Part shown: positions 13,456 through 21,034 of the stretch, one piece after another
Position numbering within the stretch: position 1 is the stretch's first letter
Layout: each line of letters begins with the position of its first letter
Origin: Streptomyces sp. NBC_00285
Lineage (GTDB): Bacteria > Actinomycetota > Actinomycetes > Streptomycetales > Streptomycetaceae
Assembly: GCF_036174265.1 (NCBI RefSeq)
Contig: NZ_CP108055.1
Location: 3,038,001-3,102,000, forward strand
Reading direction: 5' to 3'
Length of the DNA stretch: 64,000 nt
Notes under the pieces: generated by a model
What the model was told of the DNA's origin: nothing
What the model saw: the letters and a program-made list of their open reading frames with translations, nothing else
Database searches by the model: none
Position numbers and translations under genes: made by a program

Positions 13456-15219
13456 ATGGCGGTTTCCGTAACCCTTCCGGCGCTCGGCGAGAGCGTCACC
13501 GAGGGCACTGTCACCCGCTGGCTGAAGGCCGAGGGTGAGCGCGTAGAGGCCGACGAGCCGCTGCTCGAGGTGTCGACCGACAAGGTCGACACCGAGATCC
13601 CCTCCCCCGTAGCCGGCGTCCTGGCCTCCATCAAGGTCGCCGAGGACGAGACCGTCGAGGTCGGCGCCGAGCTGGCCGTCATCGACGACGGCACCGGCGC
13701 TCCCGCCGCTGCCCCGGCCCCGGCGGCCGAGCCGGTCGCCGAGCCCGCTCCCGAACCGGCTCAGGCAGCCCCGTCCACCGAGCAGGCCGCTCCGGCGCCC
13801 GCTCCCACCGCCGAGGCCGCGTCCGGCGGCGGTTCCGCCGAGGGCACGGACGTCGTCCTGCCCGCCCTGGGCGAGTCCGTCACCGAGGGCACCGTCACCC
13901 GCTGGCTGAAGTCGGTCGGCGACTCGGTCGAGGCCGACGAGCCGCTGCTGGAGGTGTCGACCGACAAGGTGGACACCGAGATTCCGGCGCCCACCTCCGG
14001 TGTGCTGCTGGAGATCACGGTCGGCGAGGACGAGACCGCCGAGGTCGGCGCGAAGCTCGCCGTCATCGGCGCCCCGGGTGCGGCTCCGGCCGCTGCTCCG
14101 GCACCCGCCGCCCCGGCCCCGGCTGCCGCCGCTCCGGCACCCGCACCCGCCCCCGCGGCTCCGGCGCCCGCCCCGGCTCCGGCTCCGGTCCAGGCCGCTG
14201 CTCCGGCTCCGGCCGCCCCGGCGCCCGCGCAGGCCGCTCCGGCTCCGGTCACCCCGGCTCCGGCGCCCGCCGCACCCTCCGGTGACGACGGCGCCTACGT
14301 GACCCCGCTGGTGCGCAAGCTCGCCGCCGAGCACGGCGTCGACCTGGCCGCCGTCAAGGGCACCGGCGTCGGTGGCCGTATCCGCAAGCAGGACGTCGTC
14401 GCCGCCGCCGAGGCCGCGAAGGCCGCCGCCGCTCCGGCTCCGGCCGTCGCTGCCCCGGCCGCCGCCGCCAAGAAGGCACCCAGCCTGGAGGCCTCTCCCC
14501 TCCGTGGCCAGACCGTCAAGATGCCGCGCATCCGCAAGGTCATCGGCGACAACATGGTCAAGGCGCTGCACGAGCAGGCGCAGCTGTCGTCGGTCGTCGA
14601 GGTCGACGTCACACGTCTGATGAAGCTGCGTGCCCGGGCGAAGGACTCGTTCGCGGCCCGTGAGGGCGTCAAGCTCTCCCCGATGCCGTTCTTCGTCAAG
14701 GCCGCGGCCCAGGCGTTGAAGGCGCACGCGCCCGTCAACGCCCGGATCAACGTGGACGAGGGCACGATCACCTACTTCGACACCGAGAGCATCGGTATCG
14801 CGGTGGACTCCGAGAAGGGCCTGATGACCCCGGTCATCAAGCACGCCGGTGACCTCAACATCGCCGGTATCGCCAAGGCCACCGCCGAGCTCGCGGGCAA
14901 GGTCCGGGCGAACAAGATCACTCCGGACGAGCTGTCCGGCGCGACCTTCACCATCTCCAACACCGGTTCGCGCGGTGCGCTCTTCGACACGATCATCGTG
15001 CCGCCGGGCCAGGTCGCGATCCTCGGTATCGGTGCCACGGTCAAGCGTCCGGCGGTCATCGAGACCGAGGAGGGCACGGTCATCGGCATCCGCGACATGA
15101 CCTACCTGACCCTCTCCTACGACCACCGTCTGGTGGACGGCGCCGACGCGGCCCGTTACCTGACCGCGGTCAAGGCGATCCTGGAGGCGGGCGAGTTCGA
15201 GGTCGAGCTCGGCCTGTAA
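13456..15219 (+). CDS. sucB: 2-oxoacid dehydrogenase E2 with two lipoyl domains
   Basis: Dihydrolipoamide acyltransferase core of the pyruvate/2-oxoglutarate dehydrogenase. Two lipoyl domains each have [16 protein letters not shown] and a lipoylation site STDKVDTE, with Lys43 and Lys171. They are joined by long Ala-Pro linkers (residues about 80-130 and 205-275). A peripheral subunit-binding domain follows ([17 protein letters not shown], about 281-320, ending GGRIRKQDV). The catalytic domain has [12 protein letters not shown] with His557 and Asp561. The ATG is 9 nt after AAGGAG. The annotation sucB versus aceF cannot be settled from sequence; in actinobacteria this E2 can serve AceE as well. 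Confidence 0.94.
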
Positions 15220-16218: not shown

Positions 16219-16842
16219 ATGACCGCGCCCGTCGTCCACTCGCTGCGCGAACAGATCCGCGAGCACATCGTGGAGGGGATCGTCAGCGGGCGCTGGCAGC
16301 CGGGCGAGCGGATCGTGGAGCGGCGTATCGCGACCGAGCTGGAGGTCAGCCAGACGCCGGTGCGGGAGGCGCTGCGCGAGCTGGAGTCGCTGCGGCTGAT
16401 CGAGTCCGCGCCGAACAAGGGCGTACGGGTGCGGAACCTGACGGCGGCCGACCTGGAGGAGAGCTACCCGGTCCGGGCCGGTCTGGAGGCGATCGCCGCG
16501 GAGCTGGCGGCGGCCCGGCTGGCGGAGGACTGCTCGGCCCTGGAACCGCATGTCGCCGCGCTGTACGAGGCCGACCGGGAGTCGGACGGCACGGGGCAGG
16601 TGCGGCACACGGTGGGCTTCCACCGGGAGCTGGTGCGGGCGGCCGGCAACTCGGTGCTGCTGCACACCTGGGAGGGCCTGGGCATCGAGGTCTTCACGGC
16701 TCTGTCGATCCGCTGGCTGGGGACGGTCCAGCAGTCGTACGCCGAGGAGCACGAGGAACTGGTGGCGGCGTTCCGCAGGCGGGATCCACGGATCGCCGAC
16801 ATCGTGAAGGCGCACGTGCTGGGGTGCGCGCCGAGGCCGTGA
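16219..16842 (+). CDS. GntR-family transcriptional regulator, FCD subfamily
   Basis: The 207-residue product has an N-terminal winged helix (residues 5-75: LREQIREHIVEGIVSGRWQPGERI, then VSQTPVREALRELESLRLIE) typical of GntR. The C-terminal all-helical FCD domain contains YPVRAGLEAIAAELAAARL, HRELVRAAGNSVLL and HEELVAAFRRRD; its histidines and Asp often bind a metal and a carboxylate ligand. It lies directly upstream of aceE and after the E2/E3 genes, so a PdhR- or LldR-like role in pyruvate metabolism is plausible. That is inference from position. AAGGAG precedes the ATG by 5 nt. Confidence 0.92.
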   Translation: MTAPVVHSLREQIREHIVEGIVSGRWQPGERIVERRIATELEVSQTPVREALRELESLRLIESAPNKGVRVRNLTAADLEESYPVRAGLEAIAAELAAARLAEDCSALEPHVAALYEADRESDGTGQVRHTVGFHRELVRAAGNSVLLHTWEGLGIEVFTALSIRWLGTVQQSYAEEHEELVAAFRRRDPRIADIVKAHVLGCAPRP

Positions 16843-17278
16843 CGACCGCTTCGGTGCCCCCTGGCCGGCAGCATTCACGGCGGCCGCCCTGATCCTTCGC
16901 GGGGGACACGAACACCGACCGAGCCTCCTCGACCCCGGCCTCGGTCTCCACCTCGCCGACGCGGTCGTACCGCCACCCCGCACACCCGCCCGCACACGGT
17001 TGCCGAACACCCGAGCGCGCCCCCGCTCAAACGCCCCCGACCTGCAAAAACCCCACACAACAGCAGTCACCCGGTGCCATCACCGAAGGCACCGCGTGCC
17101 TATTTTCTCGATATCGAGAAGTTTTGCCCCTCAACCCTTTGATCGATCATCGATCAGCGAGTTACAGTCGCCGACGGGCCTTCACAGAGGCTCGCCGCCC
17201 TGTCCTGCCAAAGACAAAGGGCACCCCCGAAACCCTGCCTGCTTGAGGGAACCCCCTTCGACTGAGGAAGGCGGCGTG
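16843..17278 (+). promoter_or_regulatory. aceE upstream region with two palindromic operators
   Basis: No gene is seen in these 436 bases. TTCTCGATATCGAGAA (17105-17120) is a perfect 16-bp palindrome. TGATCGATCATCGATCA (17140-17156) is a 17-bp palindrome around a single central base. Their centres are about 36 bp apart, close to 3.5 helical turns, and both lie 120-175 bp before the aceE start. A weaker hairpin, CGGTGCC with GGCACCG, lies at 17072-17094. The two palindromes differ in sequence, so two regulators may act, one possibly the adjacent GntR protein. Confidence 0.7.
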
Positions 17279-19984
17279 ATGACCGACCCCTACGCCATCC
17301 AGCCGAGCGAGCTCGACCAGCTCCCCGACCGGGACCCCGAGGAGACCGCCGAATGGCAGGCCTCCCTGGACGCGGTCGCCAAGGCGGCCGGCCCGCACCG
17401 TGCCGCGTACCTGATGCGCCGCACGCTGGAGAGGGCGGAGGGCAACGGCATCGCGCTGCCGAAGCTCCTCGAGACGGACTACGTCAACACCATCCCCACC
17501 GCCGCCGAGCCGGGCCTGCCCGGTGACCCGGAGATGGAGGCCCGTATCACCGCGTGGAACCGCTGGAACGCGGCCGCGATGGTGACCCGGGGCAGCAAAT
17601 ACGGCGTCGGCGGCCACATCGCCACCTTCGCCTCCGCGGCCTGGCTCTACGAGACCGGGTTCAACCACTTCTTCAAGGGCAAGGAGGCCGACGGGTCCGG
17701 CGACCAGCTCTACATCCAGGGCCACGCCTCCCCCGGCATCTACGCCCGCGCCTTCCTCGACGGCCGGCTGAACGAGCACCAGCTCGACCACTTCCGCCGC
17801 GAGTCGGGCGGCGACGGCCTCCCGTCGTACCCGCACCCCCGCCGCCTGCCCTGGCTGTGGGAGTTCCCGACCGTGTCGATGGGCCTCGGCCCGCTCTCCG
17901 CGATCTACCAGGCGCGTTTCAACCGCTACCTGACGGCCCGCGGCATCAAGGACGTCACGGACTCGCACGTCTGGGCCTTCCTCGGTGACGGCGAGATGGA
18001 CGAGCCGGAGTCGACGGCCGCCCTCGCACTCGCGAGCCGCGAGGGTCTCGACAACCTGACCTTCGTCATCAACTGCAACCTGCAGCGCCTCGACGGCCCG
18101 GTCCGCGCCAACTTCAAGATCGTGCAGGAGCTGGAGGCCCAGTTCCGCGGCGCCGGCTGGAACGTCATCAAGTCGCTGTGGGGCGGTGCGTGGGACGAGC
18201 TGTTCGCGCTCGACACCACCGGCGCGCTCGTACGGCGGCTGCGTGAGGTGCCCGACGCGCAGGTGCAGACGTACCAGACGCGCGACGCCGCCTACATCCG
18301 CCAGGACTTCTTCGGCAAGGACCCGGCGCTCGCCGAGATGGCGAAGCTGCTGTCCGACGACAAGATCCTGGAGTGTTTCCACCTGTCCCGCGGTGGCCAC
18401 GAGGCGCGCAAGGTGTACGCCGCCTACAAGGCCGCCGTCGAGTTCAAGGGCGCGCCGACCGTGATCCTGGCCCAGACGGTCAAGGGCCACACCCTGGGCG
18501 AGGGCTTCGCGTCGAAGAACGCCAACCACCAGATGAAGAAGCTCTCGGTGGACGAGTTCAAGACGATGCGCGATCTGCTCGAACTCCCCATCAAGGACAG
18601 CGACTTCGTCGACGGTGTGGTGCCCTACGGCCACCCGGGCGCCGACTCCCCCGAGGTCCGCTACCTCCAGGAGCGCCGCGCGGCCCTCGGCGGTCCGGCC
18701 CCGGCCCGCCGTACGCACGCGCTCGCCCCGCTGCCCGCGCCGGCGGAGAAGGCCTTCACGTCCTTCGACAAGGGCTCGGGCACCCAGAACGTGGCCACCA
18801 CCATGGCCTTCGTCCGTCTCGTCAAGGACCTGGTCCGCGACAAGGAGACGGGCAAACGCTGGGTGCCGATCGTCCCCGACGAGGCGCGCACCTTCGGCAT
18901 GGAGTCGCTGTTCCCGTCCCTCGGGATCTACTCCCCCAAGGGCCAGACGTACGAGCCGGTCGACCGCGACCAGCTGATGTACTACAAGGAGGCCAAGAAC
19001 GGCCAGATCCTCAACGAGGGGATCACCGAGGCCGGTTCGATGGCCGACTTCATCGCCGCGTCCACCGCGTACTCCACGCACGGCGAGACGATGATCCCGT
19101 TCTACATCTTCTACTCGATGTTCGGCTGGCAGCGCACGGCCGACCAGATGTGGCAGCTCGGCGACCAGCTGGGCCGCGGCTTCCTGGTCGGCGCGACGGC
19201 GGGCCGTACGACGCTGACGGGCGAGGGCCTGCAGCACGCGGACGGCCACTCGCCGGTGATCGCGGCGACGAACCCGGCGGCGCTGTCGTACGACCCGGCG
19301 TTCGCGTACGAGGTCGCGACGATCGTCAAGGACGGACTGCGCCGTATGTACGGCGAGGCGGCCCCGGGCGAGGACCAGAACGTCTTCTACTACCTGACGG
19401 TCTACAACGAGCCGATCCCGCAGCCGGCGAAGCCGTCCGGCTCCGGCGTCGACGAGGGCATCGTCAAGGGCCTGTACCGCTTCAACACGGCCGAGTCGGC
19501 GGGTGTCGAGGTGGCCGCGGCCAACGCCCCGCGCGTCCAGCTGCTCGCCTCCGGCACCGCGATCCACTGGGTCCTTCAGGCCCAGCGGATGCTGGCCGAG
19601 GAGTGGGGGGTCGCGGCCGACGTCTGGTCGGCGACGTCCTGGACGGAGCTGCGCCGGGACGCCCTGGAGGCGGACGCGGCCCTGCTGCGCGGCGAGGAGC
19701 GGGTGCCGTACGTCCGGCAGGCGCTGAACGGCGCCGAGGGCCCGGTGCTGGCGGTCTCCGACTACATGCGTCAGGTCCCCGACCAGATCGCGCAGTGGGT
19801 CGAGCAGGACTGGTCCTCCCTGGGCGCGGACGGCTTCGGCCTCTCCGACACCCGCGAGGGCGCCCGCCGCCACTTCGGCGTCGACGCCGAGTCGGTCGTC
19901 GTCGCGGCCCTGGCCCAGCTCGCCCGCCGCGGCGAGGTCAAGGCGACCGCGGTGAAGGAAGCACGCGAGAAGTACGGCCTGTAG
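17279..19984 (+). CDS. aceE: Pyruvate dehydrogenase E1 component, homodimeric type
   Basis: Thiamine-diphosphate enzyme that decarboxylates pyruvate and acetylates the E2 lipoyl group. The product is 901 residues, normal for the AceE family. It begins [20 protein letters not shown]. Visible segments are [15 protein letters not shown], the ThDP motif [10 protein letters not shown] near residue 238 with the closing NCN, and later [12 protein letters not shown] and [15 protein letters not shown] 17279 is preceded by GAGGAAGG at 8 nt; an in-frame GTG sits just before it. The upstream open frame back to 17000 crosses the operators and is not coding. It should work with the E2 and E3 encoded at 12-15 kb. 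Confidence 0.96.
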
Positions 19985-20059: not shown

Positions 20060-21034
20060 ATGCGCGCCGCCCGCCTGATCAAGATGGTCCTGCTGCTCCA
20101 GTCGCGGTCCTCCATGACCGCGGGCGAGCTGGCGCGGGAGTTGGAGGTGTCGGAGCGGACCGTGACCCGGGACGCGCAGGCGCTGTCGGAGGCGGGGGTC
20201 CCGGTGTACGCCGACCGGGGGCGGACCGGCGGGTACCGGCTGATCGGCGGGTACCGGACCCGGCTGACCGGGCTGGCCCGCGGCGAGGCCGAGGCCCTGT
20301 TCCTCTCCGGTGTGCCGGGGGCGCTGCGCGAGATGGGCCTGGAGGACACCGCCTCCGCCGCCCGGCTGAAGGTGTCCGCCGCCCTCCTGCCCTCCCTCAG
20401 CGACGCCTCCCGTACGGCCGCTCAGCGGTTCCATCTCGACGCGCCGAACTGGTTCGCCGAGCCGAAGTCCCCCGAGCTGCTGCCCGCCGTCGCGGACGCG
20501 GTGTGGGACGACCGGCGGTTCACCGCGCGCTACCGGAGCCGGGCGGCCGAGGTGGAGCGGGAGTTGGAGCCGTACGGGCTCGTGCTCAAGGCGGGGGTCT
20601 GGTACCTGTGCGCGCGGATCCCCGGGGACGGTTCCTTCCGGGTGTACCGGATCGACCGGTTCACCGCGGTGACGGCGGGCGAGGAGCGGTTCGAGCGGGA
20701 CGGGGAGTTCGATCTGCCCCGGTTCTGGGAGGAGCGGGCGGAACAGTTCGCGCGGTCGATCCTGCACGCCGAGGTCGTCGTCCGGCTGTCCGCGGGCGGG
20801 GTGCGCGCCCTGCCGTACGCCGTCGACACCGTCACCGCCCGGGAGGCGCTGGCGTCAGCCCGGGCGCCGGACGGGGACGGGTGGGTGACGGTGACCCTGC
20901 GGGTGGAGTCCGAGGAGGTCGCCCACGCGCAGCTGGCCTCGCTGGGGCCGGAGGCCGAGGTGCTGGCTCCGGAGAGCCTGCGGGCGCGGTTCGCGAGGGA
21001 CGCCGTACGTCTGGCGAGGCTGTACAGGACGTGA
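20060..21034 (+). CDS. WYL-domain helix-turn-helix transcriptional regulator
   Basis: The 324-residue product has an N-terminal DeoR-like helix-turn-helix (MRAARLIKMVLLLQSRSSMTAGELARELEVSERTVTRDAQALSEAGVPV in outline) followed by the glycine hairpin DRGRTGGYRLIGGY. The middle has the WYL-type signature WYLCARIPGDGSFRVYRIDR, with the tripeptide present as W-Y-L. The C-terminal WCX-like part ends LRARFARDAVRLARLY. Such proteins respond to small molecules or nucleic acids. The ATG has CATCAT 6 nt upstream and only a weak GAAGGT, so it may be leaderless. Target genes are unknown. Confidence 0.88.
   Translation: MRAARLIKMVLLLQSRSSMTAGELARELEVSERTVTRDAQALSEAGVPVYADRGRTGGYRLIGGYRTRLTGLARGEAEALFLSGVPGALREMGLEDTASAARLKVSAALLPSLSDASRTAAQRFHLDAPNWFAEPKSPELLPAVADAVWDDRRFTARYRSRAAEVERELEPYGLVLKAGVWYLCARIPGDGSFRVYRIDRFTAVTAGEERFERDGEFDLPRFWEERAEQFARSILHAEVVVRLSAGGVRALPYAVDTVTAREALASARAPDGDGWVTVTLRVESEEVAHAQLASLGPEAEVLAPESLRARFARDAVRLARLYRT

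Follow-up and report, generated by a model that had tools for sequence, protein, structure and literature searches.

A GntR-type regulator and a near-constant 17-bp palindrome as a putative control unit for pyruvate dehydrogenase in Streptomyces and related actinobacteria

What controls aceE, the gene for the homodimeric pyruvate dehydrogenase E1, in streptomycetes, and does either of the two dissimilar palindromes in front of it bind the regulator encoded next door? The question is raised by a stretch of 64,000 nucleotides from Streptomyces sp. NBC_00285 (contig NZ_CP108055.1, positions 3,038,001 to 3,102,000), hereafter the window, in which a gene for an FCD-type GntR protein, here called gntR, lies 5' of aceE and the palindromes P1 and P2 lie between the two genes (Table 1). 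The order sucB-gntR-aceE is kept in most of the Streptomyces loci compared.

Table 1. Features of the gntR-aceE locus, in window coordinates.
Feature	Position	Strand	Basis or remark
sucB-type E2 gene	13456-15219		5' of gntR
gntR, FCD-type GntR regulator (207 aa), putative P2 binder	16219..16842	+	Pfam FCD 70.6 bits, GntR 62.3 bits
First GGCACnnnGTGCC-like palindrome, GTCACCCGGTGCC	17066..17078	+	Sequence; candidate for second factor
Second GGCACnnnGTGCC-like palindrome, GGCACCGCGTGCC	17088..17100	+	22 bp 3' of first; partly kept 5' of aceE
P1, TTCTCGATATCGAGAA	17105..17120	+	Perfect here, degenerate in relatives
-35 hexamer TTGATC	17139..17144	+	Overlaps P2 left half; no variation in 81 thinned regions
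P2, TGATCGATCATCGATCA, proposed GntR operator	17140..17156	+	Conservation
-10 hexamer TACAGT	17163..17168	+	18 bp after -35
aceE, homodimeric pyruvate dehydrogenase E1, proposed target	17279..19984	+	TIGR00759 1265.7 bits, cut-off 859.9
WYL-domain regulator gene	20060-21034		3' of aceE

Both palindromes are real: P1 is a perfect palindrome of 16 bp and P2 a perfect palindrome of 17 bp with one central base, with 19 bp between them. A sequence-only reading of this DNA had considered such sites unlikely by chance, which holds for AT-rich palindromes and fails for perfect 16- and 17-bp palindromes as such, the window (71% G+C) containing three even and five odd ones against about 3.7 of each expected from a first-order Markov model. 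P1 and P2 are set apart from the other palindromes of the window by their AT-richness (6 of 16 and 7 of 17 positions are G or C, against 12 to 16 in the remaining six) together with their 19-bp spacing. At up to three mismatches, each occurs at a single place in the window (0.03 matches expected for P1), and the same search of the window found no second P2-like site that might serve gntR itself.

At up to one mismatch and at any position, P2 was present in 193 of 199 Streptomyces genomes, and its reversed control pattern gave one match across all 199. Upstream of aceE, it was found with the same tolerance at 24 of 24 loci carrying the window's type of aceE (L026-L048 and L050; 76-96% identity). 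Related sites precede aceE at the three aceE2-type loci (L049, L051, and L052; 70-73% identity), and none of the 53 other aceE loci (L053-L105, at most 64% identity) has P2 within three mismatches; the 80 aceE loci are those kept from a scan of public genomes, and plus-strand matches were counted. The sequence-only reading had proposed a search for both palindromes 5' of aceE orthologues; that search found P2 conserved and P1 largely without conservation. In 81 thinned aceE upstream regions, which include loci retrieved via P2 itself, 16 of the 17 P2 bases are invariant and the last is A in 85%. At up to two mismatches P2 was found at all of 124 loci, a set that likewise includes loci retrieved via P2 and counts some loci from one genome twice (for example L049 and L170). 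Less bias attaches to the counts from the 24 aceE loci and the 54 gntR-fetched loci described below, and to the genome tallies.

The position of P2 relative to the promoter is nearly constant. All 103 distinct segments contain TTGATC followed by TANNNT at 16-18 bp, the distance being 18 bp in 99 and the second hexamer TACAGT in 71. P2 starts with the last five bases of TTGATC and, in the aceE promoter, thus reaches over the -35 and most of the spacer. Its right half falls within the spacer and varies as little as the left half does. On the coding strand, every one of the 81 thinned aceE regions has C at the centre of P2 (window position 17148), as do the pdhABC loci introduced below; P2 is oriented, and a purely symmetric dimer operator does not explain its central C.

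The distribution of P2 follows that of gntR. A gntR homologue at E <= 1e-30 was detected in 190 of the 199 Streptomyces genomes, and all 190 contain P2 somewhere. When P2 was sought within 1.5 kb of the best-scoring gntR matches, it lay 62-1224 bp 3' of the gene at 54 of 54 Streptomyces loci, the window's own locus included. All six Streptomyces genomes without P2 are also without gntR; five of them lack an aceE of the window type, and in the sixth, G168, aceE is reduced to its C-terminal half. At this locus (L314, G168:C29:496000-505000) part of sucB runs into the C-terminal aceE half and gntR is missing, by deletion or misassembly. Nine Streptomyces genomes are without gntR in all, and three of these nonetheless have a P2-like site: G050 at aceE, G139 before ccr, the gene for crotonyl-CoA carboxylase/reductase, and G001 before ccr and at one further place. 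The contig ends within aceE in G001 and G139 and starts 290 bp before P2 in G050; since aceE is thus cut by, or starts within 350 bp of, a contig end, the absence of gntR from these three is probably an assembly gap. G168 is without gntR, yet has the site before ccr. At another locus (L186, G018:C18:71000-79000) the window-type aceE is lost and gntR and P2 are kept, directly before the WYL regulator gene.

The same association was seen at greater evolutionary distance. Among 296 genomes of the class, 56 encode a GntR homologue at E <= 1e-30, comprising 28 from Streptomyces, 16 from a family designated f17 (60-63% identity), and 12 others (38-58%). The exact 16-mer TGATCGATCATCGATC occurs in 44 of the 296, the same 44 that have gntR at 60% identity or more, and in none of the 252 class genomes without such a gene; the reversed control gave zero throughout. 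Of its 47 occurrences, three are extra copies, each in a genome with another copy by gntR. Fisher's exact test gives 1.4e-53 for the co-occurrence, a P value that ignores relatedness and is meaningless as such, although the co-occurrence extends over two families.

The loci of family f17 place the regulator and its site before a different type of enzyme. At 16 of 16 loci, gntR is followed by P2 and then by homologues of pdhA, pdhB, and pdhC, as judged against locus L299. The E1-alpha of L299, the only one scored, reached 440 bits on TIGR03182 (cut-off 393.85), its E1-beta exceeded the cut-off of NF006667, and its E2 scored 433.5 bits on TIGR01349, just under the cut-off of 445. P2 overlaps a promoter of the form TTGATC-17-TANNNT at all 16. 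None of these 16 pdhABC loci contains aceE, the window-type WYL gene, or a close sucB, and gntR is the only regulator seen in common between the window and the f17 loci, the WYL gene being without a match in f17. The unit of gntR and P2 would here serve an operon for an E1-alpha/E1-beta/E2 pyruvate dehydrogenase.

More diverged gntR genes retain the core of the site. At five further f17 loci and in Nonomuraea gerenzanensis, gntR (55-58% identity) is divergent from aceE; one of these f17 aceE genes was scored and matches TIGR00759. The sequence ATGATCGATCAT lies between the two genes at four of the five f17 loci and in N. gerenzanensis, and the site of the fifth is also intergenic. Because the five loci are 83-86% identical to that of N. 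gerenzanensis over about 3.1 kb, f17 is probably the Streptosporangiaceae. The even palindrome TGATCGATCA, the core common to P2 and the more diverged loci, is kept with gntR homologues of 51-58% identity at five of five f17 loci, in N. gerenzanensis, and at three of three Streptomyces aceE2 loci, where a gntR homologue (51-54%) precedes aceE2 and TGATCGATCA stands before gntR2, aceE2, or both. Streptomyces atriruber (L049) has such a second unit of gntR2 and aceE2, with two P2-like sites, besides the first. Both TGATCGATCA and ATCGATnATCGAT are absent at a plasmid-borne Streptomyces gntR homologue (52%, L387) and from 441,883 bp of loci L002-L015 and L053-L105. At nine loci with gntR homologues of 38-45% identity, ATCGATnATCGAT was found in two (L313 and L321), a looser match in two (L311 and L312), and no site in five. 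We propose from these comparisons that gntR and P2 may be tied to the enzyme activity and not to a particular enzyme gene.

The regulator and P2 co-occur even in distant relatives with the other enzyme type, so the GntR protein very probably binds P2. That it also controls transcription of the pyruvate dehydrogenase E1 genes is, judged from conservation and gene context, likewise very probable. The sequence-only reading had named the GntR protein as a candidate for one of the two palindromes; comparative genomics strongly supports P2 as that site (44 of 44 genomes against 0 of 252, the pair being kept before the other pyruvate dehydrogenase type).

A GntR protein at a pyruvate dehydrogenase promoter is a kind of system already known from E. 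coli. PdhR is likewise an FCD-type GntR regulator whose gene adjoins aceE and whose target is the pyruvate dehydrogenase promoter, as proposed here. The window protein belongs to the FCD subfamily (PF00392 62.3 bits and PF07729 70.6 bits, both above cut-off), and its gene adjoins a pyruvate dehydrogenase E1 gene in the window, at the 54 Streptomyces loci with P2 3' of gntR, and at the 16 pdhABC loci. E. coli pdhR heads its operon and is autoregulated, and its operator is ATTGGTnnnACCAAT, with GGT-n3-ACC half-sites. In contrast, no P2-like site was found for the window gntR itself, P2 lacks GGT-n3-ACC half-sites, and the window protein scores 36.2 bits on the PdhR model NF007001, whose cut-off is 330. 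Its best NCBIfam relative is the PhnR-type FCD GntR family (TIGR03338), at 106.4 bits against a cut-off of 271.5. GntR proteins of the FadR/PdhR type recognise GT-n-AC half-sites; P2 is without these, which counts against binding by GntR. In Corynebacterium glutamicum, RamB and GlxR control aceE together with acetate-related genes, a parallel in actinobacterial aceE control, although these regulators belong to other protein families and have other operators.

The GntR protein most likely acts as a repressor. Repression is the simplest mechanism for a site that takes in the -35 and the greater part of the spacer: the protein, presumably a dimer, would bind P2 and block RNA polymerase at the aceE promoter. 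A small ligand at the FCD domain would lift repression; it may be pyruvate, to which the parallel with PdhR points most directly, or a neighbouring metabolite such as acetyl-CoA. The metal-binding residues of FCD domains are an Asp and three His. Residues H130, H135, H178, and H199 are invariant in 10 aligned GntR homologues, with a residue other than Asp at the place expected for it, and may form a metal or ligand site in the FCD domain.

Sites resembling P2 also occur before other genes of central carbon metabolism. A sample of 30 chosen genomes (9 without gntR and 21 with) included 26 with ccr (TIGR01751), 24 of them with the upstream region in view; it is hidden by a contig end in G008 and G050. 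The sequence TGATCGATCATCGCTCA or a one-mismatch form precedes ccr in 8 of the 24, and a mutase gene is next downstream of ccr. Seven of the gntR-less genomes have ccr, with the site in three (G001, G139, and G168), no site in two (G120 and G198), and the region cut in two. Before ppdK (TIGR01828), which links pyruvate to PEP, TGATCGTTCATCGATCG or close forms were counted at 14 of 30 loci in a fixed 420-bp stretch before locus position 1600; thirteen are within three mismatches of P2 and one (L337) has four, and a further reverse-strand match with three mismatches at L349 was left out of the count. The ccr and ppdK sites are patchy, as judged by presence only and without a tree, and the regulator may act on ccr, in the ethylmalonyl-CoA pathway, and on ppdK in part of the genus. 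A malic enzyme gene was dropped as a target, its AAATCGATCATCGATCA site being present in the own genome only (1 of 28 genomes).

Several further elements were noted around these sites. The palindrome GCTCAnnTGAGC lies 21-22 bp after the P2-like ppdK site at 14 of 14 loci (L328-L339, L341, and L357); GGCACnnnGTGCC by the ppdK site was dropped as evidence, being the centre of a longer hairpin that may be a terminator. GCTCAT and ATCTGAG half-sites occur before ccr. In 21 of the 25 loci examined, the ccr promoter region contains two GGCACnnnGTGYC-like palindromes in tandem, spaced 22 bp apart; both copies match GRCACnnnGTGYC in 19, and the four loci without the tandem are second ccr copies. The second palindrome of the tandem lies between TTGnnn and TACGTT-like hexamers. 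In the own genome, ccr is the only place with the exact tandem (L218, C1:8602416-8602450), and a similar, partly conserved tandem pair stands 5' of aceE at window positions 17066-17100. Perfect P2 copies were also seen, in some Streptomyces, at the promoter of a gene for an SDR-family oxidoreductase at the motif-fetched loci L156, L158, L159, L161, L164, and L182 (L164 scored), and no target is claimed for the sites at L151 (by a 3-hydroxyacyl-CoA-dehydrogenase-like gene, assigned by eye), L154, and L155.

These additional sites bear on the sign of regulation. In E. coli, Cra, a member of the LacI family, acts as one regulator at catabolic and gluconeogenic genes of the pyruvate/PEP node; its logic would be the same if the ppdK site is real, although Cra is of another protein family and no sequence relation is claimed. 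It is possible, if somewhat unlikely, that the GntR protein binds P2 as an activator or a dual, Cra-like regulator rather than as a simple repressor. The site before ccr in the own genome is centred 58 bp 5' of the presumed -35, a position like that of an activator. S. coelicolor grown on Tween versus glucose had SCO2183/aceE1 down 3.5-fold and SCO2494/ppdk2 up 30-fold (PMC7494193), and relatives of both genes carry the site here; these data are compatible with opposite signs at aceE1 and ppdk2. Nothing in them involves gntR or links them to SCO2182, which one paper proposes, as a guess only, as a (positive) regulator of SCO2183/aceE1 (PMC9739823). Repression is favoured where the site coincides in part with the core promoter, as it does in front of aceE and pdhABC and at the divergent gntR-aceE loci.

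P1 was rejected as a conserved operator: at up to one mismatch it occurs in 15 of 199 Streptomyces genomes, and a near-perfect dyad (7 or 8 of 8 pairs) in 4 of 81 aligned aceE upstream regions, the window among them. Two (L108 and L117) of the 14 P1 loci fetched from other genomes are at aceE. Elsewhere the place of P1 is taken by TTCTCGnnATCrAGAr and weaker forms, with a mean pairing of 3.7 of 8 over the 81 regions. P1 is probably a degenerate element that is perfect here by lineage accident. It is rather improbable that P1 serves a lineage-specific regulator as a second operator, independent of P2. Such an operator would fit the total of 300 dyad pairs, above all 1000 column shuffles (242.5, sd 9.65), although the shuffles take no account of relatedness, and also the arms resembling TTCTCG..CGAGAR at the same offset in some relatives; against it stand the small number of regions with a near-perfect dyad and the T runs flanking P1, which are better conserved than its arms.

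That some other DNA-binding protein binds P2, with gntR hitch-hiking in a conserved region, is improbable. In its favour, the order sucB-gntR-aceE is kept in most of the Streptomyces loci compared, and at two aceE loci (L041 and L048) P2 is present and gntR is absent from the stretch examined. However, the f17 neighbourhood is reduced to gntR, P2, and a pyruvate dehydrogenase, the core of the site also accompanies the related gntR-aceE pairs, and gntR and P2 co-occur exactly across the 296 genomes. Least credible is that P2 is a promoter element only, with no regulator bound: the TTGATC and TANNNT hexamers of all 103 segments fit it, but the right half of P2 is as invariant in the spacer as the left, the ccr copies lie well 5' of the presumed promoter, and at two SDR genes (L156 and L164) the first base of the P2 copy is the last of a TAGGAT -10-like hexamer. 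The reading preferred here is that the GntR protein binds P2 and represses.

According to the sequence-only reading, pyruvate dehydrogenase in streptomycetes has no nameable regulator. This needs qualification: SCO2182 had only been guessed at, and SAV742 (PMC5107987) and RspA1 (PMC7411085) are each reported to bind the aceE1 or pyruvate dehydrogenase promoter of another streptomycete, which may or may not concern the orthologue of the window aceE. A limited search of the literature, insufficient to establish absence from print, found no description of the operator, its constancy, its place before two enzyme types, or the possible extension to ccr and ppdK.

The wider reading is put forward tentatively, as one that may well be right and may slightly more readily be wrong. 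One actinobacterial GntR protein and a nearly unchanging 17-bp operator would form a control unit for the step from pyruvate to acetyl-CoA, held in near-constant -35/-10 geometry while the enzyme was switched between AceE and E1-alpha/beta. In part of Streptomyces the unit would have come to include ppdK and the ethylmalonyl-CoA pathway as well, and would be the missing switch between glycolytic growth and growth on acetate or fatty acids. Pyruvate dehydrogenase sets the supply of acetyl-CoA for streptomycete growth and for polyketide antibiotics, so a defined regulator and operator would, if the proposal is true, offer a tangible means of acting on the pyruvate/acetyl-CoA node. The possible site at ccr would matter since ccr feeds ethylmalonyl-CoA extender units, with ppdK as a further possible site. 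In evolutionary terms, the locus would be a clear case of a regulator and operator kept unchanged in front of enzymes of different types.
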